This document shows positions 2,829-55,606 of a stretch of DNA of 64,000 nt, one piece after another. The stretch spans positions 62,001 to 126,000 of the forward strand of contig NC_019683.1 of the NCBI RefSeq assembly GCF_000316605.1, given 5' to 3'. The position numbers were made by a program, and so were the translations under genes. Every line of letters starts with the position of its first letter. The first letter of the stretch is position 1. The notes under the pieces were generated by a model. That model searched no databases. It was not told the origin of the DNA and saw only the letters and a list, made by a program, of their open reading frames with translations. Source of the DNA: [Leptolyngbya] sp. PCC 7376. GTDB taxonomy: Bacteria > Cyanobacteriota > Cyanobacteriia > Cyanobacteriales > MRBY01.

Positions 2829-3434
2829 TTACCAGATTTTTGTCATGGGTAATTGGAAGCCTTTAAGTTCCGGTTCGCCACTGAGCACTTCCTGATTTTT
2901 GAGAATTTGTGGTTCTTGATTGGGACGATAAATATAGACAGATCGGTTCTTTCGGTCAATGAGCCAACCCAAGGAAACACCATTGTCGATATACTCGACC
3001 ATCTTTTCCTTTAGTGATTTGAGCGTGTCACTTTTTGAGCGCAACTCAATTACAAAATTAGGACAAATTGGTGCAAAAGACGCTTTTTCCTCCTCTGTTA
3101 AAGCCTCCCATTTTTCTGTGCGAATCCATGAAGCATCTGGCGATCGCGTGGCCCCATTCGGCAACGTAAATCCAGCGCTGGAATCAAACCCTAAACCAGT
3201 ACCATCTTTCTCTGCCCATATGCCCAACTGCATAGCGAGATTGAAGTTACGATTACCTGTGTCAGAAAAAGCGGGAGGCATAACGATTACTTCTCCTGTG
3301 GCAGTGCGTTCGATGCGTAAATCTCGGTTTGCAATGCAAAATTCATGAAATTCGTCGCGACTCATCGGCTTGGCTCTGGGCACAACCACACTCCAACCTG
3401 ATGTTTCTCCTTTGATGAGTAGGTTTGTCGCCAT
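2829..3434 (-). CDS. Uma2-family (DUF820) putative endonuclease
   Basis: 201 residues of the Uma2 family, PD-(D/E)XK-fold proteins greatly expanded in cyanobacteria and of unproven function. The 'RSPDASWIR' segment and the following 'FVIELRSKSDTLKSLKEKM' carry the usual D...ExK catalytic pattern. The frame is open to 3611, overlapping the 3' end of argF, but the ATG at 3434 (MATNLLIKGE...) gives the normal family length and leaves a gap of 133 bp to argF. It may be a single gene of a dispersed paralogous family. Confidence 0.85.
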   Translation of the reverse strand: MATNLLIKGETSGWSVVVPRAKPMSRDEFHEFCIANRDLRIERTATGEVIVMPPAFSDTGNRNFNLAMQLGIWAEKDGTGLGFDSSAGFTLPNGATRSPDASWIRTEKWEALTEEEKASFAPICPNFVIELRSKSDTLKSLKEKMVEYIDNGVSLGWLIDRKNRSVYIYRPNQEPQILKNQEVLSGEPELKGFQLPMTKIW

Positions 3435-3567
3435 AGGATTTTCCGCCCGACTATTGCTGATGTTTATTTTAACGGGTTGTTTCAGAGCTGTGATCGCCCC
3501 AATGCTCAAAAAAACGACCCAATTTTTGAGCATTGGATCGCGATAATGTTGAATTTTGGTGCAAACT

Positions 3568-30061: not shown

Positions 30062-30547
30062 CTATGATGACCAAACACCACTAGCGATTTGTACTAGAGG
30101 CTCAACAAAAGGTGTGCCGCAGAGGAAGTACGCGAAGAACGCACCACCACAACCGCCGAGTAAGAAACTACTCGCAAACTCACTCCAACCAGAATCTGTT
30201 CCGAGATCTTCAGGAGGGTTAGGATTTGTCAAAGTCGCAGCGGGAGTACTAACACCAGCGCTACCGTAAAGGGACAGAGCCACAGTCAAAATAGAAACTA
30301 GACCTACTGCCGCTAAAAGACCAGCAATACTTGCGTAGTCGCTGTCCCGTAGAGGACCAAGCACAGCAAAAGGACCATAGACAAAAAAGCCATGGGCCAT
30401 ACCAATCTCCAGACCACGACGTTGCGCCGAGAGACCTTTGCGGTAAGCAGGTAAATTATTTAGAAAAGCTTTAGTAAAAGCAGAAGCATTGACAGGGGTT
30501 GCGAGGTTGCCCACTTGGGGGTCGCCACCATGTGTAATAACATCCAT
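30062..30547 (-). CDS. psaL: Photosystem I subunit XI
   Basis: 161 residues, the standard PsaL with three membrane spans. PsaL lies at the centre of the cyanobacterial PSI trimer and is needed for trimer formation. '[27 protein letters not shown]' (cited in part) and the Gly-rich C-terminal span are conserved. A second, diverged PsaL domain occurs in the fusion protein at 43902-45470. psaL is divergent from psaI rather than downstream of it, which differs from the psaI-psaL order I recall in other cyanobacteria. Confidence 0.97.
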   Translation of the reverse strand: MDVITHGGDPQVGNLATPVNASAFTKAFLNNLPAYRKGLSAQRRGLEIGMAHGFFVYGPFAVLGPLRDSDYASIAGLLAAVGLVSILTVALSLYGSAGVSTPAATLTNPNPPEDLGTDSGWSEFASSFLLGGCGGAFFAYFLCGTPFVEPLVQIASGVWSS

Positions 30548-37363: not shown

Positions 37364-37505
37364 ATCTGTCGAGAACATAAATTCAAGAAAAAATGAGTAA
37401 GCCTGAGTATTTCCTACTATGCAGCCTGATTCGACTTAGTAGCGAAGGTTAAACTGTAGAAATAAGGCTTTTTCTCCTCAAAAATTCATCAATACAGTAG
37501 ACATT

Positions 37506-38351
37506 ATGCGAGAAACTATCGCTGTCATTTTCGATTTTGACGATACCCTTGCGCCAGATAGTACTTCAGGTTTATTACAGAAATTAGGGGTGGATGTTGA
37601 ACTGTTTTGGCGTGATGAAGTCGAACCATTGATTCGTGATGACTGGGATCCAGTGCCAGCCTATCTTGTGAAAATGATCCAAAAATCTCGCAATGGTGAA
37701 GTCCCCACAATCACAAAAAAAGTATTGCAAGATTGGGGGAAAGAATTACCGCTTCATACTGGAGTGAACTCTATTTTTCAGCGGATTCGTGACCACGCGA
37801 AAAAGATTAACCCACGTCTTTCTATTGAGTTTTATTTGATTAGTAGTGGCATCGAAGATGTCCTTCATCACACAGAAATTGCCCATGAATTCCATGATAT
37901 TTGGGCGTCAAATTTTTCCTATGACGAAAACGAGGCGATCGCCTACCCGAAGAAAGTGGTGAGCTTTACCGATAAAACTCGTTATATTTTTCACATTAAA
38001 AAAGGCTTATCGGCGGATGCGGTGCGAGGCAAACCCTTTGAAGTTAATCGAAAAATACCTTCGGGGCGATCGCGTATCCCTTTGAATCAAATGATTTTTG
38101 TGGGGGATGGCTATACCGATATTCCTTGTTTTTCTCTCGTGCGAAAAGGTGGAGGGATTGCGATAGGAGTTTACGATAATGAACGGCGCGATCGCTGGGG
38201 AAGGGCATGGGGTTTTGTGGAAGATGGTCGTGTCTCAAATCTTGTCCCGGCAAACTTTGAGGAAAAACGTGCTTTATCTAATTCGCTGCTAATGGCAGTG
38301 GAAAGCCTTGCCCAAAAGATTTCGCTTCAGGGCAATATTTACCAAGGCTAG
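37506..38351 (+). CDS. HAD-superfamily hydrolase
   Basis: 281 residues. The N-terminal 'VIFDFDDTLAPDS' is the HAD nucleophile motif DxDxT; 'YLISSGIEDVL' is motif II; 'MIFVGDGYTDIPCFSL' provides the metal-binding Asp pair. It should be a phosphatase or phosphotransferase acting on a small molecule, specificity unknown. Two HIP1 sites lie in it. It is convergent with aroA, 24 bp apart. Confidence 0.88.
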   Translation: MRETIAVIFDFDDTLAPDSTSGLLQKLGVDVELFWRDEVEPLIRDDWDPVPAYLVKMIQKSRNGEVPTITKKVLQDWGKELPLHTGVNSIFQRIRDHAKKINPRLSIEFYLISSGIEDVLHHTEIAHEFHDIWASNFSYDENEAIAYPKKVVSFTDKTRYIFHIKKGLSADAVRGKPFEVNRKIPSGRSRIPLNQMIFVGDGYTDIPCFSLVRKGGGIAIGVYDNERRDRWGRAWGFVEDGRVSNLVPANFEEKRALSNSLLMAVESLAQKISLQGNIYQG

Positions 38352-38375
38352 AGTCTCAGAATTAGGCATCAAAAT

Positions 38376-39716
38376 TTAAGCAATCTGACATACATCTTTG
38401 AGAGTATCGACAAAGGTTGGGTAGGAAATCGATGCAGCTTCAGCTCGATGAATCTTAGTTTCACTCTTCGCATTCAGCGCGGCGATCGCCAAACTCATGG
38501 CAATGCGGTGGTCGGTATAACTATCCATTTCTGCACCATTTAATGTGGCACCACCCGTAATTTCTAAACCATCGGGATGCTCGATAATATTTGCGCCCAT
38601 CTTGCCGAGTTCTGCTGCCATTACTGCGAGGCGATCGCTCTCCTTTACCCTTAGCTCTTCGGCATCTTTGATAATTGTGGTTCCCTCTGCAAAGCAAGCC
38701 GCCACTGCCAAAATTGGTACTTCATCAATTAGACGCGGAATAATTTCGCCACCAATAGTGCAACCTTTAAGTTGAGAATATTTCACCCGCAAATCTGCCA
38801 CAGGTTCACCTGCTACTTCACGAGAATTCTCAAGAGTCATATCTGCCCCCATCAATTGCATCGCTTCGATAATGCCTGTACGAGTTGGGTTAACGCCGAC
38901 ATTTTGAATCAGTAAATCTGAATCAGGCACGATTGCTGACGCTACCATCCAGAATGCCGCTGAACTAATATCTCCCGGCACAACCACCTTTTGGCCAACT
39001 AATGTTGGATGAGGCTCAAGCGTCACGCTATTCGTTTCGGAGTCAATCTCTAAATTTGCGCCAAATGCCCGCAACATTCTTTCACTATGATCGCGAGAAA
39101 GAGCAGGCTCCGTTACTGTTGTTTTGCCTTCTGCCAACAAACCTGCTAATAAAACACATGATTTCACCTGGGCTGAGGCTATAGGCGAATGGTAATGAAT
39201 TCCTTTAAGTTGCGTACCTTTAATACCGAGGGGAGCGAGTGACCCACCTTTCTTTCCCCAAATCTGAGCGCCCATCTCTTGTAAAGGTTTAACCACACGG
39301 GACATGGGCCGGGATCGTAATGAGCCATCACCAGTGACCGCAAAGAATCGATCCGAGGATGAAGCTAGTAAACCCATCATTAACCGCATCGTTGTCCCGG
39401 AATTTCCGGCATCTAATACATTGTCCGGTTCCTGAAGATTACCTAAACCCACGCCTTTTACTCGTACTTCCGTGGAATTGAGCTCTGAAATTTCTGCACC
39501 CATCGCTGAAAAACAAGCTGCTGTACTCCGAGGATCTTCTCCTAAAAGTAATCCTTCGATGACTGTCTCCCCTTCGGCGATCGCCCCCAACATGAGTGCA
39601 CGGTGAGAAATCGATTTATCACCAGGAATAGTGACTGTTCCTTGAAGGCTCAAGCCAGACTGAGGCGGTGTAATTACAAGCTGCTGATGGGAAGAAACTT
39701 CGTCGAGACGGATCAT
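38376..39716 (-). CDS. aroA: 3-phosphoshikimate 1-carboxyvinyltransferase (EPSP synthase)
   Basis: 446 residues. It joins shikimate-3-phosphate and PEP in the aromatic amino-acid pathway, upstream of TyrA. '[20 protein letters not shown]' (PEP and shikimate binding) and '[18 protein letters not shown]' are the two family signatures; '[11 protein letters not shown]' is the third. The 'NSGTTMRLM' loop has the Gly-Thr arrangement seen in class II (glyphosate-tolerant) enzymes, though class was not tested. Confidence 0.96.
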
Positions 39717-40034
39717 GTTGGCCTTGTACTGAAATGAGCGATGTCATATTACCGAATTTCACCAAGTATTGACTATTCACGATGATAAATATTGTGATCT
39801 CACAACACTTTTCGTTGAGTACAAACACTCAAATGAACTCAAAAGTTAAAATCTCATGACTTAAAAAATGTCTGAAATGAAGGTTTTGCGTTGAATGTCA
39901 GGGATATATGATAATTGGGAGATCCATGACTCTCGTTCTTTGTTACAACATTTGTAAGCAGGCGATCGCCGTGCGTCGAAGTCAAACTATGCGTCATCGA
40001 CATTCAATCCGAAGCGCAACGGAGGAGCAACCAA
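39717..40034. other. Divergent intergenic region, aroA / DUF4912 gene
   Basis: 318 bp without a gene. It contains a HIP1 site (39962-39969) and, just before the downstream start, a strong ribosome site GGAGGAG at 40021-40027, 7 nt from the ATG at 40035. No convincing operator repeat was recognised. Confidence 0.7.
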
Positions 40035-41333
40035 ATGACCATCGCAAATAGCAATGGATTCGAAGATAACTTCGAAGAAATGACCCTAAGGCAGCTACGT
40101 AAAGTAGCAAGCAAGCTTGGCATTAGTCGCTATAGCCGCATGCGTAAGGATCAACTTCTTGCAGAAGTTAAACAAAAAGCGAACTACACGAGCCCTAGCC
40201 CAGTAGCCGCGAAAGCAATCACAGAAGAAACTGTTAATCCCGTTAATCGTGAAGAGGAGGAAACCCTAGTGGAAGCCGCAAAATTTGAGCTTGGTCAAGA
40301 CAATCCTGTTGAAACAGATTTAGCAACAGCTGATGAAGATCTTGGTGATCTTCCTGGTGGTTATGGTCAAAGCCGCATCGTTTTGCTTCCCCGTGACCCT
40401 CAATGGGCTTACGCTTACTGGGACATCCCCAACGATCACAAGCAATACCTCCGCAATCAAGGTGGTCAACAAATCGCATTGCGCCTCTATGACGTAACCG
40501 ACATTGACATTAACCATCAATCGCCCCACAACGTGCAGGAATATCTCTGTGATGAGATGGCTCGTGAATGGTATTTCCCCATCCCCGTGAGTGATCGCGA
40601 TTACATTCTTGATATTGGTTACCGCTGTGCTGATGGCCGCTGGTTAAGCCTTGCGAAATCTACAACTATCCGTGTACCGCCCGTTTACCCCAGTGACTGG
40701 GTAGAAGACGTTTTTGTCACCGTAAATTGGGACGAAGATCTTAAAGGCAAGACGGTTTACAATCTCGTTCCCCCTGCGAAGAAGCAAGCTGAGGAAGCAG
40801 CGGCAGCAGCGGCAGCATCCAAGAAAAACGCTATCTACGACGAAATCTTTGGTGATATGTCGTCTCTCGAAGGACGTCACATAGCAGGTTCGATGCAGCA
40901 TGTTGCTGGTTCTGTTCCTCCCCAAGAATCCATCAGTTCCTATGTCTTCCCTTCTGGCATGGGTATGTGGGCTGTGCCAAACGTTTCTGGTCTCAGCAAC
41001 GTCTCTGGTCTCAATATGTCTGGTGCTGGTTTTGCGTCTATGCCTCCTGCACGTCCCCGGAAGTTCTGGTTGGTTGCAGATGCTGAACTCATCGTTTACG
41101 GTGCGACTGAGCCTGATGCAGAAGTCACAATTGGTGGTCAGCCTATTAAGCTCAACCCCGATGGTACTTTCCGCTTCCAAATGTCTTTCCAAGACGGCAA
41201 CATCGATTACCCAATCGTTGCAGTGGCGGCAGATGGTGAGCAAACTCGTTCTATCCACATGACCTTCGACAGAGAAACACCTTCTCGCAATACCAATACG
41301 AAGGAAGAAGCAATGGATGAGTGGTTTGTATAA
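40035..41333 (+). CDS. DUF4912 protein with an N-terminal Rho-N/SAP-like domain
   Basis: 432 residues. Residues 15-50 ('TLRQLRKVASKLGISRYSRM') match the Rho termination factor N-terminal (SAP-like) fold, which binds nucleic acid. A central DUF4912 domain (about 115-240, 'RIVLLPRDPQWAYAYWDI') follows, then Ala-rich and Gly/Ser-rich linkers and a second beta-rich domain (about 340-420, 'WLVADAELIVYGATEPDAEV'). Function is unknown. Very strong ribosome site and codon use suggest high expression. A terminator follows. Confidence 0.85.
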   Translation: MTIANSNGFEDNFEEMTLRQLRKVASKLGISRYSRMRKDQLLAEVKQKANYTSPSPVAAKAITEETVNPVNREEEETLVEAAKFELGQDNPVETDLATADEDLGDLPGGYGQSRIVLLPRDPQWAYAYWDIPNDHKQYLRNQGGQQIALRLYDVTDIDINHQSPHNVQEYLCDEMAREWYFPIPVSDRDYILDIGYRCADGRWLSLAKSTTIRVPPVYPSDWVEDVFVTVNWDEDLKGKTVYNLVPPAKKQAEEAAAAAAASKKNAIYDEIFGDMSSLEGRHIAGSMQHVAGSVPPQESISSYVFPSGMGMWAVPNVSGLSNVSGLNMSGAGFASMPPARPRKFWLVADAELIVYGATEPDAEVTIGGQPIKLNPDGTFRFQMSFQDGNIDYPIVAVAADGEQTRSIHMTFDRETPSRNTNTKEEAMDEWFV

Positions 41334-41373
41334 AATCTCAAAGGTCTAAATTTTAATTAAAAAGGTCTATTTT

Positions 41374-41400
41374 CTCCTCAGTTCTCTGGGGAGTTTTTTT
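41374..41400 (+). terminator. Rho-independent terminator after the DUF4912 gene
   Basis: CTCCTCAG pairs with CTGGGGAG (one wobble pair) around TTCT, followed by a run of T. Confidence 0.8.
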
Positions 41401-41455
41401 TGACTACAGATACGATGATGGATAAGTCGTAAGCAATATTGAGTGGGATTTTTGG

Positions 41456-42076
41456 ATGATGGGCGATCGCCTCTTTTTTGATAGAAAACAAACTTTTTTT
41501 GACCGCTGGGCCCCAAACTACGACATCATTTTCACGACACCGTTTTATCAGGCTGTCCACAAAAGAATGTTGGAATATACTGATTTTCCAGTGGATGGTC
41601 ATGTTCTCGATCTGGGATGTGGCACAGGGAAATTATTTAAACGGTTGGGTAAGCTTTATCCGGAGTTGACGGGAGTGGGTCTCGATTTATCGCCTGAGAT
41701 GTTGCGGCAAGCGAGAGAGAAAAATCTGTGGGGCGATCGCCTAACCTTCAAACAAGGCAACGCAGAATCCCAACCCTTTGAAGAGAATACGTTTGATGCA
41801 GCTTTCAATACTATTAGCTTTCTCCACTATCCAAATCCTCAAAAGGTCTTAGAAGAAATCGCCCGTGTTCTTAAACCTGGTGGCAAATTCTATTTAGCGG
41901 ACTATGCCAAAGGTGAATTATTTCAAGGCAGCGGAACTCCTTTCTCCCCAGGCGGCATTCGATTTTATTCTCGCCAAGAACGCACTGAAATGGGTAATAT
42001 CGCAGGGCTTGAAACGGTCTCCCATGAATATTTAATGTTTGGCGTATTGCTGACAGTCTGGCAAAAACCTCAGTAA
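41456..42076 (+). CDS. Class I SAM-dependent methyltransferase (Ubi/Coq-like)
   Basis: 206 residues. 'VLDLGCGTGKLFKRLG' (SAM loop), 'GVGLDLSPEMLRQAR' and 'EEIARVLKPGGKFYLADY' fit the Methyltransf_11 group near UbiE. It starts ATGATG, and the first residues encode 'MMGDRLFF' across a HIP1 site. Substrate unknown. Confidence 0.85.
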   Translation: MMGDRLFFDRKQTFFDRWAPNYDIIFTTPFYQAVHKRMLEYTDFPVDGHVLDLGCGTGKLFKRLGKLYPELTGVGLDLSPEMLRQAREKNLWGDRLTFKQGNAESQPFEENTFDAAFNTISFLHYPNPQKVLEEIARVLKPGGKFYLADYAKGELFQGSGTPFSPGGIRFYSRQERTEMGNIAGLETVSHEYLMFGVLLTVWQKPQ

Positions 42077-42514: not shown

Positions 42515-42949
42515 TTAAGCGATCGCCGCAGTCTGTGTCATTTGCCATACCAGCGTTACTCGGCCATAACGCGGATCGATTTCTAAGGGCATGAGTTGTA
42601 CTTGCAATGCAGGACGATCACCGGTGACAGTCACTGTATAAGTGGCGCTTTCACCAAGATTTAACTGGCTGCTATATTGAAAAATTTCAGTTCGTTCAAT
42701 CGGTAATAAAAAGTCTGCGGCATCATAGAGTACTGCTTGGTTTTGAAACGAAAATTGACCATCATGGGTCAAAATAGCAGCGGGCTCAGCAAGGCGATCG
42801 CACCATCGCACTGCTAGAAACCAACGCGCCTCAGAAATACGTGGAAAGACTTTGTCTGGACGGGGATGTTCTAAAACACGGTAACCTCCCTGAACCGATA
42901 AAATTGTACCGCCTAAAAAACCGCAAACTACGGCGATAGGTTGGCTCAT
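42515..42949 (-). CDS. Hypothetical protein
   Basis: 144 residues, no recognised family. A Gly-rich hydrophobic start ('MSQPIAVVCGFLGGTILSVQGGYRV') may be a membrane anchor; the remainder is mixed alpha/beta with 'VTLVWQ' near the end. It lies 22 bp upstream of the VOC gene on the same strand, so co-transcription is likely. Confidence 0.6.
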   Translation of the reverse strand: MSQPIAVVCGFLGGTILSVQGGYRVLEHPRPDKVFPRISEARWFLAVRWCDRLAEPAAILTHDGQFSFQNQAVLYDAADFLLPIERTEIFQYSSQLNLGESATYTVTVTGDRPALQVQLMPLEIDPRYGRVTLVWQMTQTAAIA

Positions 42950-43064: not shown

Positions 43065-43778
43065 CTACACTGAAATGATAAGAACCACTGTGGTTAATAA
43101 CAATGCCGTTGCAGCTGCCGAAACACCGACTAAAGCACGACGATAGATCTCCGTACTACGATCAATTGGGCCACGACTGATTGGCCGCAATTGACCTGTT
43201 AGATAAAGCTGATCGAGGTGGTTGCTGTCATAGCGAGCCATCCGAGCAAAAGGTAATTCCCCGCTTTCATGTTGCGGTAAAACCCGACGGCGTTGGTAGG
43301 GAATTGTATCTTCACCAAAAGCCTCTAAATATTCATCTGTTGAGAGCAGCGCATCAACAAAGCCCTGGATCCCTTTAGTTGCCAGCACAATTGACCAAGA
43401 TAATTTCTCTTGCTCGTTATAAACAGCTCGACCCAACACCCGCTGGATACAGATCTCTGCAAAACGATAGTTACTATTGGTATCGAAATTTAGGTGGCGA
43501 AATGAATCTGATAAAAGGAGACAACGAATAAAATCACGCATCGTAATTTGCCGATTACGTAGCTGCGATTCGAGTTCCCTTTGTCTAGTGATTTTGAGCA
43601 GTTGTTGCTCGTTGAAAATTTGACGATAAGCAACCCGAATCATGTTGTCCAGTTCTGCATTGGAGGGTGAGGTTTCGAGTGTGTATTGGATCGGCTGTTC
43701 TTCGCCGCACTGCTTATCAAAACTTTTGACCCTGTGATTTCGACTTGTGGGATTGTATGCCAGTGTAGGAATAGTCAT
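43065..43778 (-). CDS. cpcL: CpcL (CpcG2)-type phycobilisome rod linker with membrane anchor
   Basis: 237 residues. A phycobilisome linker (PBS_linker_poly) domain spans about residues 20-155 ('LDNMIRVAYRQIFNEQQLL', 'TMRDFIRCLLLSDSFRHLNF', 'RVLGRAVYNEQE'). A C-terminal hydrophobic segment (about 215-236) replaces the CpcG1 tail. That tail marks CpcL, which tethers rod-only phycobilisomes to thylakoids and delivers energy mainly to photosystem I. The ATG at 43778 (MTIPTLAYNP...) fits the family; the frame is open to 43808. It lies 123 bp downstream of the CP43-like/PsaL fusion gene. Confidence 0.88.
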   Translation of the reverse strand: MTIPTLAYNPTSRNHRVKSFDKQCGEEQPIQYTLETSPSNAELDNMIRVAYRQIFNEQQLLKITRQRELESQLRNRQITMRDFIRCLLLSDSFRHLNFDTNSNYRFAEICIQRVLGRAVYNEQEKLSWSIVLATKGIQGFVDALLSTDEYLEAFGEDTIPYQRRRVLPQHESGELPFARMARYDSNHLDQLYLTGQLRPISRGPIDRSTEIYRRALVGVSAAATALLLTTVVLIISV

Positions 43779-43901
43779 GGGAAAAATGTGAATGTCTAAA
43801 AAGTTCAAGTAAAAGAAAGTGGCTGTAGAGACAAAGTTGCCTCTGCCTCTACGACCAAATGGATTGGCAAAACTTAAAAACTATAAAAAATGAAACGTGG
43901 C

Positions 43902-45470
43902 TTAAACGAGTCCTGCACGGACAATTTCCATCAGTACAAATCCTGCAAAGATTGCGCCGCCAACGCCACCAACCAGGAAGCCTGAGGTAAAGAAGCTCCA
44001 GCCTTTATAGTTCTGGAGATTTTCTGGCAAGACTCCTATTGGTGCTTCGCGCTCTTGGAACATCGCCATTCCGTAGAGGAATAGACCGAAGCTCAAAATC
44101 ACAACGAGGGCGATCGCACTACCTTCTCCAGCGATAAAGGCCTGATCACTATCACGCAATGGGCCTAACTTGAGGAAAGGGCCGAGCAAAAAGTAACCGT
44201 GAGCCATGCCAATTTCGAGACCTCTGACAATCGGTGCAAGGCCATCACGATAGATTGGTAGATTTTTAATCCAAGTTTTAGTCAGGGGACTAGCCGTAAT
44301 CGGTGTATCGAATGTGCCGAGCTGTGGGTCATTTTGAGGAGGCAATACAAGGCCTTCAAGCACAGTGGCATCACCGCTAAATTGCCGATCACCATAGAGT
44401 GCATCGGGATTAAAGCTCATTTTGCTAAAGCTGTAACCTGCGGCGATCGCCCGAGAACGAAGACCATGCCAGAAGTGACCCGCCATCAGCAAACAAGCAA
44501 AAATCAATTGGAACAGCATTAACCAAGTTCGGGGTGTAATGATGCCGTGGGCTGTGGTTGTACCGACGGGACCATAAAAAACTTCAGGGAAAACAGTGTC
44601 ATTCACCCACACAAAATAAGCTGCGAAAAATCCCATGTAGGCGATCGCCGCTTGACTATAGGCGAGGTATGCTTCTCCAGACCAGACAAATAAACCTTTT
44701 GCCCATTTTGTTGGCTCGGTTTGAATATGCCAGAGACCACCGACAACACAGATCGCACCGATCCAGACATGTCCACCGACAACATCCTCAAGGTTATTAA
44801 CCGCAGCCATTCCCTGGAGTGTCCAACCATCAGGTGTAATACCAACGACATATCCAAAGATGCGTAGCGGATTAAAGGTTGGATCTGTCACTAACCGTAC
44901 ATCGGCGATCGCCGGATCATAGAGACCTCCGAATAGACTCGCCTTGAGGGCAAGGAATAATGCCCCAATACCTAACAGGACAAGGTGAATACCGAGAATA
45001 CTGGTCATTTTTTGGCCATCTTCCCATTTGTAACCAAAGCCTTTAATATCAAGCTTCTCAGGCCCTAAAACAGCATGGTAAATACCACCTGCACCGAGAA
45101 AAGCAGAACTGATGAGATGAACTGCACCGATCACAAAATAAGGATAGGTATTCACAATGGCACCATCAGCACCCACACCAATACCCAATGCTGCGATGTG
45201 GGGCAACAACACAAAGCCCTGATCGTACATCGGCAAACTGGCATCGTAGCGAGACAGCTCAAAGAGTGTCATTGCCCCAGCCCACAAGACAATCAAACCA
45301 GCATGGGCCACATGGGCACCGAGGAGTTTACCGGAGAGATTTGCAAAGCGAAAATTCCCCGCCCACCAAGAATAAGGATCTTGAGAGGTTGCAACGAATG
45401 CATTCGGATCCGCTTTATCTGCCGTAAACCCGAGCGGCTGAAGCGGATTTTTATCAATTGTTGTTGTCAT
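43902..45470 (-). CDS. CP43-like chlorophyll-binding protein fused to a PsaL domain (CBPV type)
   Basis: 522 residues. Residues about 30-345 form a six-span CP43-like antenna of the IsiA/Pcb family ('[20 protein letters not shown]', '[20 protein letters not shown]', '[16 protein letters not shown]'). From about residue 375 a PsaL-like domain follows with '[20 protein letters not shown]' and '[16 protein letters not shown]'. Such fusions are known in some cyanobacteria; the PsaL part probably docks the antenna at the PSI PsaL site. It starts 2 bp after the preceding CP43-like gene, so it is in the same operon. Confidence 0.93.
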
Positions 45471-45472
45471 AA

Positions 45473-46507
45473 TTAAGCAGCCTTTCCACGAGTAGATTCG
45501 ATCACACGACCTTCCTTAAAGCTGTAACCAGCTGCCCGGAGTGCATGGAAAATATGTCCCTGTAAGAAGAAGAAACCAAGCCAAAAATGAGCATTCGCCA
45601 ACCAAACACGACTTGTATTGACGCCGTCAGGACTAAGGAATACCGGGAAGCGGTCAAAGTTAAGGGTTAATGTTGGGCCAAAAAATTCTGTGGGGAAAAC
45701 AAGAGAATTAACTGAGACGAATAAGGTGGCAATGAATGCCATCAAACTGACTGCCCCAATGCTGTAAGAAAGATAAGCTTCACCGGACCATACAAATAGA
45801 TTTTTTGTCCATGACAGTGGCTTTGATTTGATATGCCAGAAACCACCAGCAATCAAGGTCAAACCAAGAAGGATGTGACCACCAACAACATCTTCTAAGC
45901 TGTCAACGCCCGCTAACCAAAAGTTACCTTCTGTACCCAAGAAATATCCGAAGATTTTCGCTGGGCTTAGGGTTGGATCGGTGATGATGCGTACATTTTC
46001 AATGCTGGAGTCATACAAACCGCCAAAGAACATTGCTTTAGCCGCAAGCATAAAAGCACCAACGCCTAATAAAACAAGATGAATACCCAAAATAGTGGTC
46101 ATCTTATCGGTATCGTCCCACTTATATCCGAAAAATCCAGAAGTTCTTTCTAGCTTTTCGGGTCCTTTAAGAGCATGAAAAATTCCGCCAGCACCGAGGA
46201 ATGCAGAGCTAATGAGGTGAATTGCACCAATGACAAAGTAGGGATAGGTATCCGTCACCATACCGCCTTCGCCAACTCCAATACCCAATCTTGCGAGGTT
46301 CGGCAGGACAATCAAACCTTGCTCAAACATTGACTGGGATGTATCAAAATTACTGAGCTCGAACAATGTGATTGCGCCTGCCCAAAGCACGATAAGACCA
46401 GCATGGGCCACATGGGCACCAAGTAATTTACCGGAAAGATCGACTAGCCGTGCATTTCCGGCTCGCCATGGAATTTGTGAGTTAATACTGTCTGCGGCGA
46501 TCGCCAT
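45473..46507 (-). CDS. CP43-like chlorophyll-binding antenna protein (IsiA/Pcb family)
   Basis: 344 residues with six membrane spans. '[20 protein letters not shown]', '[20 protein letters not shown]' and '[20 protein letters not shown]' carry conserved His chlorophyll ligands. It lacks the large lumenal loop of true CP43. It differs from classical IsiA at the N-terminus, so it is better placed in the CBP clade than called isiA. It is second of three paralogues on this strand. Confidence 0.92.
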
Positions 46508-46610
46508 GACAGAGTCCTCCTTTCATATAGAAAATTTGTAAAAACTGGATGTGATGGAATGCTGCTAGAAATAGCCCAACATTCAACTCATTGGTTGAAA
46601 AACCTTGCAC

Positions 46611-47678
46611 TTAATTCGAACTAGTGACGGTGCTAGGCTGCCGATCTGCTGCGAAATCAAAGAATGTGCCTTGAGGCTCACCTTGCTTTTCACATATGGC
46701 CCGATATGCATGCCATAAATGTCCGAGCAATGCCAGAAATCCAAAGGCTGCATGGACACTAGATAAAGCGGCTCGAGTTGAGGCGATCGCATCTACTTCG
46801 CCATAAAATATGCTTGGGTAAGCAACTTCATTCACGGAAACAAACACTGCAACACTGAATCCGGCGATCGCCAAAGCGCCCAAGCTATAAGACAAATAAG
46901 CCTCACCAGACCAAACTAATCTTTCCTTTGCCCAAGCGAATGGCTCAGTGACGATGTGAAAAATACCACCACCAATGCAGAGAACACTGACCCAGACATG
47001 GCCACCGATCACATCTTCGAGATTATTGACGCTCGCTAAACCAGCAATATTCCAGCCAGTACCATCAAGACCAAACAAATACCCAAAAATACGTGCAGGA
47101 TCTAAATTCGGATTAATGAGACGAACATCATTAACGAGCGGATCATAGATACCGCCAAAATGCGTTGCCTTCAGAACAAGTAACAAAGCACCAATGCCTA
47201 GCATTACCAAGTGAATGCCAAGAATTGACGTCATCTTGCCGCCATCTTTCCAGTCATATCCGAAAGCCTGTTCACTGAGTTTCTCAGGACCCAGAACCGC
47301 ATGGTATAACCCGCCTGCTCCCAATACCGCAGAGCTGACAAGATGCAAAATAGCGATGACATAGTAGGGATAAGTATCAATGATCACCCTTTCAGCACCA
47401 ACCCCAAAACCTAACGTAGCGAGGTGAGGTAACAAAATTAGATTTTGCTCAAACATTGGCACTGTCGGGTCGAAGCGAGACAGTTCAAACAGTGTCATTG
47501 CCCCTGCCCACAGCACAATTAAACCTGCATGAGCAACGTGTGCCCCTAATAAACGACCAGAGAGATCTTTAAATTGGTCATTACCTGAGAACAAAGAAAT
47601 CTGTGTCTCAGATGTTTCCCTAAAAGACCAGCCCAGCGATCGCATAAAGGGATTCCAGAAGAGTCCATTTACAGCCAT
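46611..47678 (-). CDS. CP43-like chlorophyll-binding antenna protein (IsiA/Pcb family), first gene of the operon
   Basis: 355 residues, six membrane spans with the same His boxes ('[20 protein letters not shown]', '[19 protein letters not shown]', '[19 protein letters not shown]'). It is the most upstream of the three antenna genes and so nearest the operon promoter in the 666-bp region 47679-48344. The gap to the next gene is 103 bp. As for its paralogues, it probably binds chlorophyll around photosystem I. Confidence 0.92.
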
Positions 47679-48344
47679 ATCAGCTCCTTATAGTCAAAGC
47701 CCAAAACATCACAAAACTCAAATGGCTTTGTGCATTCCACTGTGAGCAGAACATAGTCTCAGACTCTTTATTGACCTTTATTTTCAATAAAGTGATCTCA
47801 CAATACATCAGAATCTTTCGCATTAAGAAAAACATTAACTTATATTGAGAGCTTTTTGGGAGCGGGGCTTACTTTGCTCTGTTGGAGGTTTTGTGCGAAA
47901 AGGAATGGGCGGGATTGTCTTGAAAATCTTATTTAGAAAGAGATTTAGAGTATAGAGGGAAAAAGATTGGCACCCGTGTATATCAGGAAATAGAATTGGT
48001 AACCAATAAATGTTTGCGTCTGAAATAGTTTGAATTCAGTATCTCTATCAAGAAATCGGATATTAATATAATAATATTTCTCACTTAAGAGCTTTTATTT
48101 GGCTTTGTAATGCGATAGATTAGCAAATGATTTCTAGATGCTCATCATGGTGCTCTTAATCTTGGTTAGGGGTACCATTCCTTTAGCGAGTTCTCGTATT
48201 CTTTTGCTATTGATTAGTTCAATGTTCTTCAGCACTAATGTCGTAGTGAGTGCTATTTTCGGTTAAACAATTTTTATTTCAAGCTGTCACCTGTTATCTG
48301 GCGATCGCCATAGTGCTTGATCTGGTTTTTGAAAAAATATCGAA
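47679..48344. other. Upstream region of the antenna operon
   Basis: 666 bp without a gene, between the antenna operon and the psbA terminator. It is AT-rich and contains a perfect 7-bp inverted repeat at 47776-47792 and another AT-rich stretch near 47825-47855. It must hold the antenna operon promoter. I found no recognisable gene or small RNA. Confidence 0.6.
47776..47792. promoter_or_regulatory. Candidate operator: palindrome CTTTATT-TTC-AATAAAG
   Basis: A perfect 7-bp inverted repeat with a 3-bp centre, 98-114 bp upstream of the first antenna gene. Its AT-rich nature is compatible with a Fur-like or other dimeric regulator, and iron-regulated isiA operons are Fur-controlled, but no consensus match was established. 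The regulator is not identified. Confidence 0.3.
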
Positions 48345-48473: not shown

Positions 48474-49556
48474 TTAACCGTTGATAGCGGGAGCTTGAAG
48501 AGCAACAGGAGCTTGCTCGCCAGCAGCCAAATCGAGAGGGAAGTTGTGAGCGTTACGCTCGTGCATTACTTCAAAACCGAGGTTTGCACGGTTAAGAATG
48601 TCAGCCCAAGTGTTGATTACACGACCTTGGCTGTCAAGAACAGACTGGTTGAAGTTGAAACCATTGAGGTTGAATGCCATGGTGGATACACCAAGAGCAG
48701 TGAACCAGATTCCAACTACAGGCCATGCACCAAGCAAGAAGTGCAAGGAGCGGCTGTTGTTGAAGGAAGCGTATTGGAAGATCAAACGACCGAAGTAGCC
48801 GTGAGCTGCAACGATGTTGTAAGTCTCTTCCTCTTGACCAAACTTGTAACCGTAGTTCAAGGACTCAGTCTCAGTTGTTTCACGAACGAGAGAAGAAGTA
48901 ACGAGAGAACCGTGCATAGCGGAGAACAAAGAACCACCAAAGACACCAGCCACACCGAGCATGTGGAAGGGGTGCATGAGGATGTTGTGCTCAGCTTGGA
49001 ATACGATCATGAAGTTGAACGTACCAGAGATACCCAAAGGCATACCATCAGAGAAAGAACCCTGACCGATGGGGTAAATCATGAAGACTGCAGTTGCAGC
49101 TGCTACGGGAGCAGAGAAAGCAACACAGATCCAAGGACGCATACCGAGACGGTAGGAAAGTTCCCACTCACGACCCATGTAGCAGAAAACGCCAATGAGG
49201 AAGTGGAAGATTACCAACTGGTAAGGGCCACCGTTGTACAACCACTCATCAAGAGAAGCAGCTTCCCAGATGGGGTAGAAGTGGAGACCAATTGCGTTAG
49301 AAGAAGGAACAACAGCACCAGAGACGATGTTGTTACCGTAAAGAAGAGAACCTGCTACGGGCTCACGAATACCGTCGATGTCAACGGGAGGAGCTGCGAT
49401 GAACGCAATGATGAAGCAAGTTGTTGCAGTGAGAAGAGTAGGGATCATGAGAACGCCGAACCAACCGACATAAATGCGGTTCTCGGTGCTAGTGATCCAC
49501 TGACAGAACTTCTCCCACAAAGAAGCATTGCTGCTTTGCTGGATAGTAGTAGTCAT
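48474..49556 (-). CDS. psbA: Photosystem II D1 protein, high-light (Glu130) form
   Basis: 360 residues, full length, with five membrane spans. Tyr161, Asp170, Glu189, His190 and the carboxy-terminal ligands His332, Glu333, His337, Asp342 and Ala344 are all in place. The 16-residue tail after Ala344 is the normal processing extension. Residue 130 is Glu, which marks the D1:2/high-light class as opposed to Gln130. D1 carries the manganese cluster and QB site and turns over rapidly in light. Other psbA copies would be expected elsewhere in the genome. Confidence 0.98.
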
Positions 49557-49711: not shown

Positions 49712-52700
49712 TTACCAAGGGTTTCCGATGATTACGAAAGAGCTCCAATAGTAGGGGTGAGTCAGTTGGCGATCGCCGAATTCCTTTAGTTCGTCAGTGA
49801 GTGGGAAAGATTGATTTGAAGTGACTAACTCCCCGGCTTTAAGCTGCACATCACCCCGCAGCATTGCCAGTTGGGTCTGCCGTAATGCCTCTGACTTAAT
49901 CGGTGCTTCCTGTAACTGCTGATAGAAATCTGCGATCAATCCCAACGTGCCCTCGTCGGAGATGTACCATAGGCTTCCCAGCGACGATTTCACTCCTGCC
50001 ATCACCGCTAAGCCTGCGAAACCTAACTCTGCTTCATAATCACCAATGGCTGTTTTACAGGCGCTAAGTACCATCATTTCTACAGGTGGCTTATGGAGCC
50101 CTAATTCTCGCAATTCGTTAAGTCCTAATTTTTGGTCTCCAAATTGAATGTATGAATTATTGGGTAAACCTTGCTTAAATTCACCATGAGTTGCGAGATG
50201 GAGAAGGCGATACGGGATTTCATTACGAATGGTTTTGAGATTGTCAATGGAAAAGCCGTCATTGAGATATGATTGCCCTTCCCAAAGCACGTCACTCACG
50301 ATATTGAGTTCGAGCGGGACAGCTGGTAGAGGGCTCGCATCGGCAAATTCACTAGCTCCCATAGCAAGAATGTCTAGATTGCGGACATCTGTATATTCCA
50401 GATTAGTAAGCATCAAAGATGGCATTAGAGACAAACTATAGTCTTCAACCAAAAAGTTTGTGCCATCATTCAATACAGCCCAAGGAAGTGATCGCAGTCC
50501 ATGATCGACGGACAACGCAATATGCTCGATATTTAAACGTTCTAAATCAGCTTGCAGAGGCTCGATGAGTAATTGATAAAGTTTTTGAGAGGGTTTCCAA
50601 ATCTGAGATGCTGGCAAACGTTGGTTGGAAACGGCTCGATGTAATTTTGCTACTAGACGATAAACTTCTTCTCTTGTGGCATCGACACGAAAGACCAATG
50701 GTTCTCCTTCAGTAGGCGTCAAGATTAGTTGGAGTTGATCCTTGTTTTTGAGTTCGCCTTTCGTGGGGATGAAAATAGCGTGGATAATTGCTGGCGTTAT
50801 ACCTGTTGAATCTTGGACTTTTCTGAATTGAGCTTGGGCTTCTGCAATGGATAATCCCTCATCGTCATCATCGTCATCATCTGCTGTCTTGGCCGCAGTG
50901 GATAATTCTTCCTCATCTATTGCGTTGGATGAGGTCCCTGATTGTTGTAAATCAATGCCGCTATAACCAGAAGGATTGCTCGCGTTTGGTGAAGTTTCGT
51001 CATTCAGTGAAGTTTTGCCAGAGCTGCTTTCTGTGATTTCCTCATTGGCAGTTGAGGCTATGGTGCTATTGCTTTCTGAGTGATACTCTTCTGCCGGTGT
51101 GTTGGTTGCAGCATTAGCCTGAGTGGTGCCATCAGTAATTGTATTCGGGTCATTAGTAAATCCATTAGACTGAGTCGAGGCAGAGGATGAAGAATCTGTT
51201 GTTGCAATACTGTTGGTGATCGCCCCTCCATTACTAATCGTATTACTGGAGGTCGGTGTAGAAGAATTATTGGCGATCGCCCCAGAACCATTATTGGTAT
51301 TATTCGTCGCAATATTTGATGTTTGCGCTGTGGCAGTTTTACCCGAGGCAAAATAATTATTAAAAGCACTAGTGAAAAAATTATCGGCTCGTTCCGCAAT
51401 CACTGATGAATTCTCTTGAATCTTGACTTTTGACAGAGGAACGAAGACTATTGCATCTTGAAAAGTCGGATCAACTCCTTCTTGAATTTTAGAAATAGAA
51501 TCATCTAAATCCAGGGTGATATTCGAGAAATCAAAACTTAGGACAGGGTTTGTGACTAAGGGTGTTGAGATTAAAGGTGGTGTAGTTGGTTGAGGAGTGG
51601 CAGAGGAAGTTGTGCTCAAGATCAAATCCCCTCTTGTTATCGAGGATAGAAATGATTCCGAAAGCAAAAAACTAAAAGCACCGCTGCTAATTATTCCTGC
51701 TGTGCCATTGGTACTTGAATTCCCAATTTCAAAGGGAATCACTCCTTGGCCACCATGCCTGATAGTGACTGAACCATTACCTAAACTACCGATGGTTGCA
51801 ATACTTGCAGGCTGTCCATTCTGATCTATAAATGTCCCAGTTGCGCGAAAATATTGTCCTGCCGTGATGTCCACTGTGCCCCCAATTCCACCACTTCCCC
51901 CTTGGGCATCGATATAAGCAACTTCTACATCTCCTATTGGATCAATAAAAACATTTCCCCCATTACCAGTAGTGCCATTCGTATTAATGGTTCCTGTTGT
52001 GACGGCTTCTTGCGCAATGAGCGATACGTTGCCTCCTTTGCCACTGGAGGTATTCAGAGTTCCAGCGATTACTTCCCCAAGACTACTTGTGAGATTGATG
52101 TTTCCACCTGCCGTCGTAATACTATTAACTGCTAGGTTATTGGTCGCACTAATATCGACATTCCCTCCGGCAGTAATAACGGAATCCACAGAACTCGTAT
52201 CACTAAAGTTGAGATTAATATTTCCGAATGTACTTTGAAGGTTGCCATCACCCGAAAGCGTTTCTCCCGAAAGATTCATTACGCTATTACCAGTATCGAG
52301 TGTCACCCCGGAAGCAATAGTTAAGTCTCCACTACCGGCATCGCGAGAGGTTAGTAGAGCATTCGGATCATTTGCGGTTAATGTGAGACTGCCATTGTCC
52401 GTAAAAATATTGGCGTTAATGATGATACTGCGGCCAGCTTGAAAGGTAAGAGCCCCACCGTCACCAACGGGATTATTGCTGATGATTGATTCATTAATGG
52501 AGATGTCGTTGTTTGCCTGGAGGGAAAAGGCGGTGCCAGTGTTTGTGACATTGGTAATTAGATCGGCATCAAAGGTGAAACTACCGTCTGGATTATCGTT
52601 AAAAAGAGTCGGAGTTGTATCTAAGCTATATAGGTAGGCTGCTCCGGAATCTACAGCTCCAACATCGTCCAAGATGGCGCCAATAAGGATATTGGTGCCA

Positions 52701-55309
52701 TCTATCGCGACAGCTCGACCAAACAAATCTGCGTTTGCCGGGTTGGGATTATTAAAGGTTTGTAGTAAATTTCCACTAGCCCTATCAAACAGATAGGCAG
52801 AGCCTGTATCCGTAGCTCCGATATCGTCACGTTGGGAGCCAATAAGAATGTTGTCCCCATCAATATCTAGGGTGATACCAAAATTATCTTCAAAGGCGGG
52901 ATTTGGATTGTTGTATGTCTGCAACAAATTACCATTCGTATCAAATAAGTAAGCGATTCCAGCATCTATTGCATCTGTATCATCACGCCAAGCCGCAATG
53001 AGAAGATTATCTCCCTCTATAGCCAATGCGCGACCAAAATTGTCACTGGCATTGGGTGCTGGGTTTGGGTTGTTGTATGTGCGCAATAAACTGCCACTAG
53101 TATCAAAGAGGTAAGCCTGTCCTATATCGAATCCGAGAGTATCATCGGTTTCGGATGCCAAAAGAACATTTGTTCCACTTATTGATAACTGGCGACCAAA
53201 GTTATCAAATGCAGCTGGACTAGGGTTTGTATAGGTGCGTAATAGAGTTCCATCGATGTCAAAGAGTGCTACTTCGCCATCGTTGGTTCCTACATAAGAA
53301 AAAATTAAGACATTATCTCCATCTTTGGCTAAGCTAAATCCAAATTCATAGCCTCCAGGTATAGGATTATTGAAAGTTCTCTGTAGAACGCCGTTCGTAT
53401 CAAACAAATAGACTGACCCGGCATCTACTGCTCCTGTGTCATCAGCTCGGGCTGAGATCAGAATATCGTTGTCTTCAATTGCTAGAGACTGACCAAAAAG
53501 ATCACCATTAGCAGGTGTGGGATTGTTAAAAGTTTGAAGTAAAGTGCCATCAGTATTGAACAAATAGGCAGCCCCTGCATCTGGAGCTCCTGTGTCATCG
53601 AGATAAACACCGAGGAGAATATTATCGCCATCTAATGCGATGCCGAGACCTGCTTGATCATTGAAGGCAGGGTTAGGACTCGTAAATGTTTGCGCTAAAC
53701 TCCACCCTTCCTGTGCAATTCCGCCATCGGTAATATCAATATTTTTCGGGTCGAGGAGTAAATTTCCGGCTTCTCCATTGGGTGCGGATGCATCGACTTC
53801 TCCAGCAAATGTTCCTCCTCCTAAGCCAGAAACTTCGACCAAACCACCATCACCGCTGATTGCTCCGCCCTTTGCTTCAATTGCTCCACCGAAGTTTGTG
53901 ATGCCATCAGACCAGAGAACAACTTTACCTCCATCGCCATCAGTGAGTGCATTAGCTGTAATTTCAGAATTTAAGCCCACCGTGGTAGTAGATGACCGCT
54001 GTAAATCTCCTGAGCCTTGGTAATCTCCACCGATTAGAATTTCTCCGCCATCTGTTGCACCATCAGCGGTAATCTTTGCGCCAAAAATGCCGAGGCGATC
54101 GCCAGTGATTGTGACTTCCCCACCAGCTCCGTTTTCACCAGAAACATTAATTGTGCCCGATATGAGTTGATTGCCACTTTCGCCTACATTGAGGGATATT
54201 GAGCCACCACTGAAATTCCCTTTTGCAGAGAAACGACTATCAGCTGTAAATATAATGCTCTGCTCTGACTCAATAGATACAATACCGCCATCTCCTTCGG
54301 TACCATCCGCTAATATTTCACCCCCTGCACTATTCGAGAAATATTGCGTCTGAATATCAACTGTGCCGCCATTAGTACCATTGACATTGATGACATTTCG
54401 ATTGAGAAGTGTTCTGCCATCAATGTTTATTGTCTGACCTTGGAGAGTGCCGTCGTTAGTGATTAATCCCGGTGCATTGAGTAGCGCCAATTCTCCATCA
54501 GCACCATTGACGAGATAGTCTTGTTGCTGAGTGCTGGAAGTCAACAACTCCGGCAAATCTGCTGCTGTGATGGGTAATAGCAGACCTGCACTATCGCGAG
54601 GGGGTTCAACTTCCAAAGTCAGAATATTGTGGGGTTGCGTAATTCGAACAGTATTTTGACCTTCAACACCGACAATGTTCACGAACCCCGATGCACTGGT
54701 GATTCGTCCTTGATTATTTACAGAACCTGCCACTAAACTCAGGTTTGACTCTCTCGTCACTGATAGATTGCCAGTATTAATAATTGGCGCTGATTGCTCT
54801 AAATCGAAGGCAAGTTGTGTAGGAGAACCATTGAGAAACTCATACTCAACATTTCCAAAGGCATTGAGCCACTGATCTTCTCCAAACCCAATTCCCGTTG
54901 CTGTCGTTGCAGTAAAATCGCCGCCAACATTAAGACTAGCGTTGCCTCCAAAAATGATTCCGGCGGGATTAAGTAAATAAAGGTTGGCGTTGCTCCCTGA
55001 AACTTGTAGCAAGCCATCAATAAATGAGGTTTCACCACCACTAATTCGTCCCAGAATATTGGCTATATCTGGCTGTGACAAGAAATTTGCAGTCTGCCCG
55101 GACTCTAATCCAAATCGCTCAAAATCATGAAATAAATTCTGACCATCCCCCGATAAAGTGCCACCGCCAATATCCCATTGATCACCAGATGAAATGACTG
55201 TCGTGCCAGTGCCTCCGTCTATGGCTGTGATCGGCTGTGATGCAGCAGGCAAACTAATGCCTAGACTAGTTAGCAAAATCAGGCATCGTAACTTTCTCGA
55301 ATACTCCAC
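49712..55309 (-). CDS. Two-partner-secretion exoprotein with beta-propeller-like repeats and a C-terminal CHAT domain
   Basis: 1865 residues from a GTG at 55309 with GGAG 9 nt upstream; the frame is open to 55459. A signal peptide ('LILLTSLGISLPAASQ') and a TPS haemagglutinin domain (about residues 25-280, 'NANLYLLNPAGIIFGGNASL') come first. Seven tandem repeats of about 48-50 residues ('LLQTFNNPNP..DxFGxxLAIxGDNxLI', 'AxYLFDTNG') follow, about 540-896. A Ser/Thr/Asn/Gly-rich region then leads to a CHAT domain (about 1520-1865). The CHAT dyad is present: His in 'HLATHGEFKQ' and Cys in 'VLSACKTAIG'. It is probably exported and surface-exposed. No TpsB partner lies in the window. Confidence 0.88.
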   Translation of the reverse strand: MEYSRKLRCLILLTSLGISLPAASQPITAIDGGTGTTVISSGDQWDIGGGTLSGDGQNLFHDFERFGLESGQTANFLSQPDIANILGRISGGETSFIDGLLQVSGSNANLYLLNPAGIIFGGNASLNVGGDFTATTATGIGFGEDQWLNAFGNVEYEFLNGSPTQLAFDLEQSAPIINTGNLSVTRESNLSLVAGSVNNQGRITSASGFVNIVGVEGQNTVRITQPHNILTLEVEPPRDSAGLLLPITAADLPELLTSSTQQQDYLVNGADGELALLNAPGLITNDGTLQGQTINIDGRTLLNRNVINVNGTNGGTVDIQTQYFSNSAGGEILADGTEGDGGIVSIESEQSIIFTADSRFSAKGNFSGGSISLNVGESGNQLISGTINVSGENGAGGEVTITGDRLGIFGAKITADGATDGGEILIGGDYQGSGDLQRSSTTTVGLNSEITANALTDGDGGKVVLWSDGITNFGGAIEAKGGAISGDGGLVEVSGLGGGTFAGEVDASAPNGEAGNLLLDPKNIDITDGGIAQEGWSLAQTFTSPNPAFNDQAGLGIALDGDNILLGVYLDDTGAPDAGAAYLFNTDGTLLQTFNNPTPANGDLFGQSLAIEDNDILISARADDTGAVDAGSVYLFDTNGVLQRTFNNPIPGGYEFGFSLAKDGDNVLIFSYVGTNDGEVALFDIDGTLLRTYTNPSPAAFDNFGRQLSISGTNVLLASETDDTLGFDIGQAYLFDTSGSLLRTYNNPNPAPNASDNFGRALAIEGDNLLIAAWRDDTDAIDAGIAYLFDTNGNLLQTYNNPNPAFEDNFGITLDIDGDNILIGSQRDDIGATDTGSAYLFDRASGNLLQTFNNPNPANADLFGRAVAIDGTNILIGAILDDVGAVDSGAAYLYSLDTTPTLFNDNPDGSFTFDADLITNVTNTGTAFSLQANNDISINESIISNNPVGDGGALTFQAGRSIIINANIFTDNGSLTLTANDPNALLTSRDAGSGDLTIASGVTLDTGNSVMNLSGETLSGDGNLQSTFGNINLNFSDTSSVDSVITAGGNVDISATNNLAVNSITTAGGNINLTSSLGEVIAGTLNTSSGKGGNVSLIAQEAVTTGTINTNGTTGNGGNVFIDPIGDVEVAYIDAQGGSGGIGGTVDITAGQYFRATGTFIDQNGQPASIATIGSLGNGSVTIRHGGQGVIPFEIGNSSTNGTAGIISSGAFSFLLSESFLSSITRGDLILSTTSSATPQPTTPPLISTPLVTNPVLSFDFSNITLDLDDSISKIQEGVDPTFQDAIVFVPLSKVKIQENSSVIAERADNFFTSAFNNYFASGKTATAQTSNIATNNTNNGSGAIANNSSTPTSSNTISNGGAITNSIATTDSSSSASTQSNGFTNDPNTITDGTTQANAATNTPAEEYHSESNSTIASTANEEITESSSGKTSLNDETSPNASNPSGYSGIDLQQSGTSSNAIDEEELSTAAKTADDDDDDDEGLSIAEAQAQFRKVQDSTGITPAIIHAIFIPTKGELKNKDQLQLILTPTEGEPLVFRVDATREEVYRLVAKLHRAVSNQRLPASQIWKPSQKLYQLLIEPLQADLERLNIEHIALSVDHGLRSLPWAVLNDGTNFLVEDYSLSLMPSLMLTNLEYTDVRNLDILAMGASEFADASPLPAVPLELNIVSDVLWEGQSYLNDGFSIDNLKTIRNEIPYRLLHLATHGEFKQGLPNNSYIQFGDQKLGLNELRELGLHKPPVEMMVLSACKTAIGDYEAELGFAGLAVMAGVKSSLGSLWYISDEGTLGLIADFYQQLQEAPIKSEALRQTQLAMLRGDVQLKAGELVTSNQSFPLTDELKEFGDRQLTHPYYWSSFVIIGNPW

Positions 55310-55606
55310 AGTTTGGAATCTCCATAAGAGAAAAGGGATAACGTATGTTTCTGTTCCGCAATGACTAATAGTCCCGAGAAATCGATGCATTCTTCGGAAA
55401 GATTTGGCGAGGAAAATAAGTTTTCGATATTTTGCTGGAACTGATTTGTTGTAGACCACCCTAGGTCTTCTCTCAATAAGAGGAGTCTTCAGTTCTTATT
55501 GGGAATGGCTATGTATGATAATTCTACAATAATAAAGAAATTCTAAAGAAACTCTTTTTTCTCTATTATTTAGAGTCTATTTGTGTGCGGCTTTCGGGTG
55601 TGGAGA

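Follow-up and report, generated by a model that had tools for sequence, protein, structure and literature searches.

A four-gene antenna and linker unit in [Leptolyngbya] sp. PCC 7376: a probable iron-starvation operon for photosystem I

The window analysed here, a 64,000-nucleotide stretch of the [Leptolyngbya] sp. PCC 7376 genome (positions 62001-126000 of NC_019683.1, the single contig of 5,125,950 bases), encodes two stand-alone IsiA-type antenna proteins, a fusion of an IsiA-type antenna with a PsaL-like domain and a CpcL rod-membrane linker. These genes probably constitute an iron-starvation antenna operon, isiA2-isiA3-isiA4-cpcL, that would equip photosystem I (PSI) monomers with an arc of IsiA proteins and with CpcL rods. 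The direct observations behind this interpretation are the gene content of the unit, the linkage of the four genes in other cyanobacteria, the common ancestry of their parts, the loss of the PsaL tail from the fused domain and a dyad shared with other genes.

Gene content of the unit

The features of the locus are the following.

46611..47678, minus strand: IsiA_a, the first gene, 355 amino acids (aa), a stand-alone IsiA-type antenna; by position, isiA2 of the JSC-1/Trichodesmium cluster (see below)
45473..46507, minus strand: IsiA_b, 344 aa, the second stand-alone IsiA-type antenna; by position, isiA3
43902..45470, minus strand: IsiA-PsaL fusion, 522 aa; by position, isiA4
43929..44348, minus strand: PsaL-like domain of the fusion (residues 375-514; PF02605, 1.6e-53), without the native C-terminal tail
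43065..43778, minus strand: CpcL rod-membrane linker, 237 aa counted from the ATG at 43778
43074..43130, minus strand: 19-residue hydrophobic stretch at the C-terminus of CpcL, presumably its membrane anchor (mean Kyte-Doolittle 2.36)
47768..47790, unstranded: candidate iron-regulator site TTATTGA-N9-TCAATAA, a perfect match 90-112 bp 5' of the first ATG
30062..30547, minus strand: native psaL, outside the operon, encoding the complete C-terminal tail; its product would be displaced by the fusion

All four frames are open, and domain searches agree with the preliminary description of this DNA, which was made from the sequence without database searches, on the kinds of genes, their coordinates and their strand. 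The spacing between the second antenna gene and the fusion is 2 bp and that between the fusion and cpcL is 123 bp, as described, the latter being counted from the ATG (93 bp from the mechanical start of the open reading frame, a TTG at 43808). The Pfam family PF00421 matches antenna 1 (1e-66), antenna 2 (1e-72) and the fusion (3.9e-71), and PF00427 matches the linker (3.7e-44). The NCBIfam model TIGR03041, with a cut-off of 335 bits, is passed by IsiA_a (354.6 bits), IsiA_b (413.5) and the fusion (349.3), and none of the three reaches the CP43 equivalog cut-off of 603.05 bits; with 355, 344 and about 350 aa, respectively, these antennae are CP43-like but lack the large lumenal loop, as is characteristic of IsiA/Pcb (CBP) antennae. 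The conserved antenna histidines are presumed chlorophyll ligands. Among the 11 histidine columns common to the CP43 and isiA1 products of this genome, IsiA_a retains all 11, whereas IsiA_b and the fusion each retain 10, with N70 and Q321, respectively, replacing one.

In the fusion, the PsaL domain follows a full IsiA domain within a single open frame. The earlier portrayal of this protein as a six-span antenna joined to a PsaL-like domain is thus borne out by PF00421 and PF02605 as far as the two domains are concerned; a simple hydropathy scan gave 7 peaks for IsiA_a, 5 for IsiA_b and 7+2 for the fusion, and the count of six spans is taken from the family match. Across the genome, PF00421 is present in six genes, namely those for CP47 and CP43, isiA1 (upstream of a flavodoxin-like gene) and the three genes of the cluster. 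There are two PsaL (PF02605) domains, the fused one and that of the native psaL, which is located where the preliminary description placed it. The four-gene content and the domain make-up are far beyond chance.

Linkage and ancestry of the four genes

We surveyed two sets of cyanobacterial genomes. In the phylum sample of 292 genomes, 100 matched the fusion protein at an E-value of 1e-100 or better, most of them through CP43; stretches were taken from 25 of these, and an open-frame check identified the fusion in 24 of 26 stretches, the window included. The order sample of 388 genomes yielded 37 matches at 1e-160, of which 17, again including the window's own, fall with the window fusion into a clade of high identity. 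We denote this clade C-type; together with loci from named contigs, it comprises 21 loci, with two stretches that apparently derive from one contig (L045 and L125) counted once.

In all 21 C-type loci, IsiA_a, IsiA_b, the fusion and CpcL are encoded in this order on one strand. By contrast, no linker match of at least 45 bits was detected within the fetched stretch (at most 8.5 kb counted) at any of the 41 loci of the other fusion lineage, three of which (L053, L142 and L147) have less than 2 kb of downstream sequence. The search of other genomes for an antenna-PsaL gene next to cpcL that the preliminary description had proposed therefore came out positive for one lineage in its entirety and, within the fetched stretches, negative for the other, and the regularity of the cpcL linkage goes beyond what one cluster on its own could reveal. 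Two C-type loci have frames of unusual length: the linker frame of L119 spans only 160 aa, and L128 (G513:C179:9000-27500) combines a 283-aa IsiA_a frame with a 924-aa open frame that contains two tandem IsiA-PsaL units and is either a real double fusion or an assembly artefact.

The linker has the architecture of CpcL, a single PF00427 domain followed by a hydrophobic C-terminal span, which was recovered at residues 217-235, in line with the earlier description. It groups with hydrophobic-tailed linkers and not with tail-less CpcG-type linkers, and the solved CpcL chains 8hfq_n, 9wd5_1, 9w4j_1 and 9w7k_1 are among its matches. A hydrophobic C-terminal span is present in all 21 cluster CpcLs listed (Kyte-Doolittle 2.36 to 3.12). 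In a tree of 46 CpcL sequences, the 21 cluster CpcLs form one clade (support 98/95), apart from a second CpcL of the same genome (L158), which groups with those of the genus mates G211 and G058 (98/95). Judging from this tree, the genome carries two CpcLs, an inherited one of its own lineage and the one in the cassette. This retention of a cassette CpcL beside the own-lineage protein raises the possibility, which we regard as doubtful, that the cassette is a mobile, self-contained unit whose CpcL is specialised for fusion-bearing PSI monomers, so that an IsiA arc and a phycobilisome rod would share one PSI in a hybrid complex distinct from PSI with the ordinary CpcL.

An alternative is that the locus consists of two adjoining units, an antenna operon and a cpcL gene with a promoter of its own that serves ordinary PSI. 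The fusion-cpcL gap leaves room for such a promoter, in the window (93-123 bp) and, above all, in the f7 family, where it measures 830-1541 bp in 7 of 8 loci. However, cpcL is the next gene on the same strand throughout the C-type loci, and the genome already has a CpcL for ordinary use, so that we consider this alternative unlikely. A promoter scan of the stretch found 10 promoter-like sites, compared to 10.2 expected, which is no more than chance and says nothing either way; the terminator scan detected 6 terminator-like sites, compared to 6.8 expected, with none between the fusion and cpcL.

The antenna tree, built with a quick method from 125 of 205 rows after thinning of the other-lineage loci, places IsiA_a among 21 rows that form a clade with a support of 100 and all come from C-type clusters. 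This clade groups with the antenna domain of the C-type fusion (support 90), which suggests that the two arose through duplication inside the cassette. Cassette-bearing hosts occur in at least 8 families (f1, f2, f4, f6, f7, f8, f12 and f13), the nearest relatives of all four window proteins are found in L041 (Leptolyngbya SIOISBB) and in L114 (G373, from another family), and the fusion is absent at 1e-160 from all five genus mates. Given this distribution, the simplest reading is that the cassette was transferred as a unit; repeated loss is also possible.

The closest genus mate, G211, is syntenic with positions 34373-42076 of the window (87-93% identity), and no window gene was detected in the 8 kb of G211 examined past the equivalent of position 42076. 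Beyond this end of synteny at about 42.1 kb, the window contains the isi cassette, psbA (48474-49556) and two CHAT-domain proteins. In the stretches compared from the other four mates, the methyltransferase (41456-42076) is the only gene of the 34373-42076 block that is present, accompanied by a linker match in three mates and one match to window positions 2829-3611. There is no clean empty site in the stretches compared from the five mates, and gain and loss are not separable from them.

Several neighbouring and related genes are of interest in their own right. Immediately downstream of cpcL, a minus-strand gene (42515-42949) encodes a 144-aa protein that matches no Pfam or NCBIfam family and has no match in the five genus mates; a 54% identical protein is encoded about 1.9 kb behind cpcL in L041. 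On the other side of the cassette, the minus-strand gene at 49712-55459 encodes a protein of 1915 aa that combines secretion (TPS), FG-GAP and CHAT domains and adjoins the gene for the second CHAT protein (55607-56974, minus strand). Outside the window, a 1021-aa protein (G000:C1:723078-726143; L157 5079-8144, minus strand) contains four PF00427 domains, with no phycobiliprotein domain found, and its gene adjoins genes that we read as phycoerythrin-like and bilin-reductase-like; this one polypeptide could thread several hexamers. Elsewhere in the genome (G000:C1:1485124-1485825; L165 1125-1826), a 233-aa protein combines a weaker linker domain with a C-terminal hydrophobic span and is only 34% identical to the cluster CpcL.

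Iron control, the fused PsaL domain and the state of PSI

Upstream of IsiA_a, we identified an inverted repeat, CTTTATTGA-N9-TCAATAAAG, with the core TTATTGA-N9-TCAATAA, in which all 14 fixed bases are present, a score reached by 0 of 200 shuffles. With at most one mismatch, the core occurs at 7 sites genome-wide (5.13 Mb), compared to 1 for the reversed control pattern. Besides the operon itself, such sites precede isiA1-isiB (by 39 bp), a class I aldolase gene (NF033379, 511 bits; by about 30 bp) and a pair of ExbB/TolQ- and ExbD/TolR-type genes (below the NCBIfam cut-offs; by about 90 bp). In Trichodesmium, a class I aldolase responds to iron 74-fold (PMC12090762). The five genus mates have 20 dyad sites, of which 12 were read, with two (in G343 and G211) at an isiA promoter. 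The Anabaena FurA consensus given in PMC4005646 includes the half-site TCAATAAA. The sharing of the dyad by the operon, isiA1-isiB, the aldolase gene and the ExbB/ExbD-type pair points indirectly to iron control of the operon, with Fur as the most likely candidate regulator.

Rfam matches to the antisense RNA IsrR were found in each of the antenna genes, one per gene (113-140 bits); psbC (L002, 179 bits) and isiA1 (L006, 120 bits) are matched as well, so that these matches are explicable by coding similarity and are no evidence of an antisense RNA. By our own reading, the flavodoxin-like gene behind the class I aldolase gene (L152 2227-2778) appears to be interrupted, with two short frames.

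The best solved relative of the fusion is 7y3f_1 (578 bits across both domains), and that of IsiA_b is 9zjt_2 (494 bits), an entry that also contains a fusion chain. IsiA_a has no close solved counterpart, its best match being 7y3f_1 (388 bits). Structure prediction of the fusion from six sequences gave a mean predicted local distance difference test score (pLDDT) of 35.7, too low for use. The fused domain is 53% identical to the native PsaL over 135 residues and also keeps one 10-residue core stretch. The native PsaL matches 6vpv_L across residues 1-160, including the C-terminal tail, which in the window PsaL is TPFVEPLVQIASGVWSS; this tail is absent from 61 of 61 aligned fused domains (20 C-type, with L128 left out, and 41 from the other lineage). 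Apart from these, the frames in L066 (G174) and L067 (G091), of 357 and 368 aa, respectively, contain a fusion-like antenna domain without a PsaL match, possibly having lost the PsaL part.

The PsaL domain and the solved relative point to PSI, rather than photosystem II, as the target of the antenna. In the Anabaena PSI-IsiA structure, the C-terminal domain of the fusion occupies the PsaL position and PSI is monomeric (PMC9938196). Considering this monomer together with the loss of the tail, substitution of the fused PsaL for the normal one is more likely in monomeric than in trimeric PSI. Thus, of the tentative idea put forward earlier that the fused PsaL replaces the normal one in the trimer, replacement is favoured and the trimer appears less likely.

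Under the iron-starvation interpretation, which draws on published relatives for iron induction, PsaL replacement, monomeric PSI and the presence of CpcL on PSI under iron deficiency, a shortage of iron would cause an iron-sensing repressor, most likely Fur, to leave the dyad. The four genes, presumably expressed as one transcript, would then be induced along with isiA1-isiB and genes for iron uptake. The PsaL-like domain of the fusion would take the PsaL position, removing the oligomer contact and fixing the IsiA domain against the PsaA side, so that PSI would be monomeric, and the two stand-alone IsiA proteins would continue the arc. The co-encoded CpcL would anchor core-less phycocyanin rods to the same PSI pool, and the scarce, iron-rich PSI could thereby gain both chlorophyll and bilin antennae. 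The earlier suggestion that this set supplies PSI with chlorophyll-protein as well as phycobilisome antennae thus gains indirect support from the four-gene linkage, the dedicated CpcL clade and the iron-type dyad; that one PSI carries both antennae at once is conceivable by extension.

Several observations weigh against this interpretation. Three of the 7 dyad sites have no recognised iron link: one lies within a gene, one in an intergenic region and one where an unknown frame begins. Among the 21 C-type upstream regions, 7 (the window included) match the dyad at 13 or more of the 14 fixed bases and 11 at 12 or more; the remaining 10, with scores of 8-11 that 12 to 183 of 200 shuffles equal, show no clear dyad. 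A scan for the classic Fur consensus upstream of the operon gave no outstanding site (12/19, equalled by 76 of 100 shuffles), and the Anabaena FurA 19-mer scores 13/19 at the dyad, with six other places in the window at 14-15. Of the four residues that distinguish the Anabaena fusion from PsaL, the window domain shares just one (M470/F471/T495/F498 for W426/F427/N451/W454), so that the two fusion lineages are not identical at these aligned positions. Furthermore, CpcL is found with PSI dimers and monomers in iron-deficient Anabaena (Shimizu 2023, as reported in PMC11165356), yet none of the 41 other-lineage loci has a linked cpcL; hence the linkage seems not to be needed for function. Finally, in Chroococcidiopsis, the abundance of the fusion in white light is 80 times that in far-red light, with a difference of about 80-fold for Chro_2988/2989 (PMC8827656), a light response.

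This last observation would fit a set that answers light colour or low light rather than iron, all the more as the light-colour system CcaS/CcaR controls cpcL genes elsewhere (PMC12461855). Because the upstream dyad is common to isiA1-isiB, the class I aldolase gene and the ExbB/ExbD-type pair, and the four-gene relatives described in PMC12090762 are iron-regulated, we regard control by light as improbable. Still more improbable is a fusion that substitutes for PsaL within PSI trimers, contributing its antenna while the trimer stays intact, given the uniform loss of the tail and the solved Anabaena monomer, even though the PsaL core is retained and three of the four Anabaena monomer-form residues are not found in the window domain.

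The iron-starvation operon would bring two routes that feed PSI, through chlorophyll-binding IsiA and through CpcL rods, into a single genetic unit with a linker of its own. If both antennae are indeed assembled on one monomer, the complex could be isolated and would reveal where CpcL docks when PsaL is replaced. Together, the linkage survey and the dyad provide testable predictions for cassette-bearing cyanobacteria.

Comparison with known systems

The fusion of Anabaena 7120, IsiA2 (PDB 7Y3F and 9ZJT), resembles that of the window in joining IsiA to PsaL and in having an IsiA_b-like partner. In contrast to the Anabaena protein, the window fusion belongs to a different lineage, the C-type clade, and is accompanied by IsiA_a and a linked cpcL; in a pairwise alignment, the interdomain connection is about 30 residues in the window fusion and 7 in the Anabaena fusion. 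The window linker shares PF00427 and the C-terminal hydrophobic anchor with the CpcLs of rod-type phycobilisomes (Synechocystis CpcG2 and Anabaena CpcG3) but belongs to a clade of its own, confined to C-type clusters among the 46 sequences. In the Nodularia psbC-lk cluster, a CP43-like/PsaL hybrid similarly lies beside further IsiA-type genes; as described in PMC3610870, this cluster includes isiB and not cpcL, and the paper, with reference to Shih 2013, assigns such hybrids to CBPV.

The closest counterparts are the clusters of Leptolyngbya JSC-1, with the order isiA2-isiA3-isiA4-cpcG2-isiA5 and about 500-fold up-regulation under iron limitation (as cited in PMC12090762), and of Trichodesmium (Tery_2483-2486), with the same order and an iron response of more than 300-fold for the isiA-like genes and 30-fold for cpcG2 (PMC12090762). 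The window, with two antennae, an antenna-PsaL fusion and a membrane linker on one strand, matches these clusters by gene order and kind only, the fusion being third and the cpcG2-type linker last. JSC-1 has isiA5 behind cpcG2, whereas a genome search found no further isiA-type gene in the window genome; the Trichodesmium cluster as printed is likewise without isiA5. The combination of antenna-PsaL and cpcL, which the preliminary description had singled out as noteworthy, is therefore of an already known kind, printed for JSC-1 and Trichodesmium in PMC12090762. What the present analysis adds is the candidate regulatory DNA signal and the evidence that the four genes, including a phycobilisome anchor of their own, travel together.

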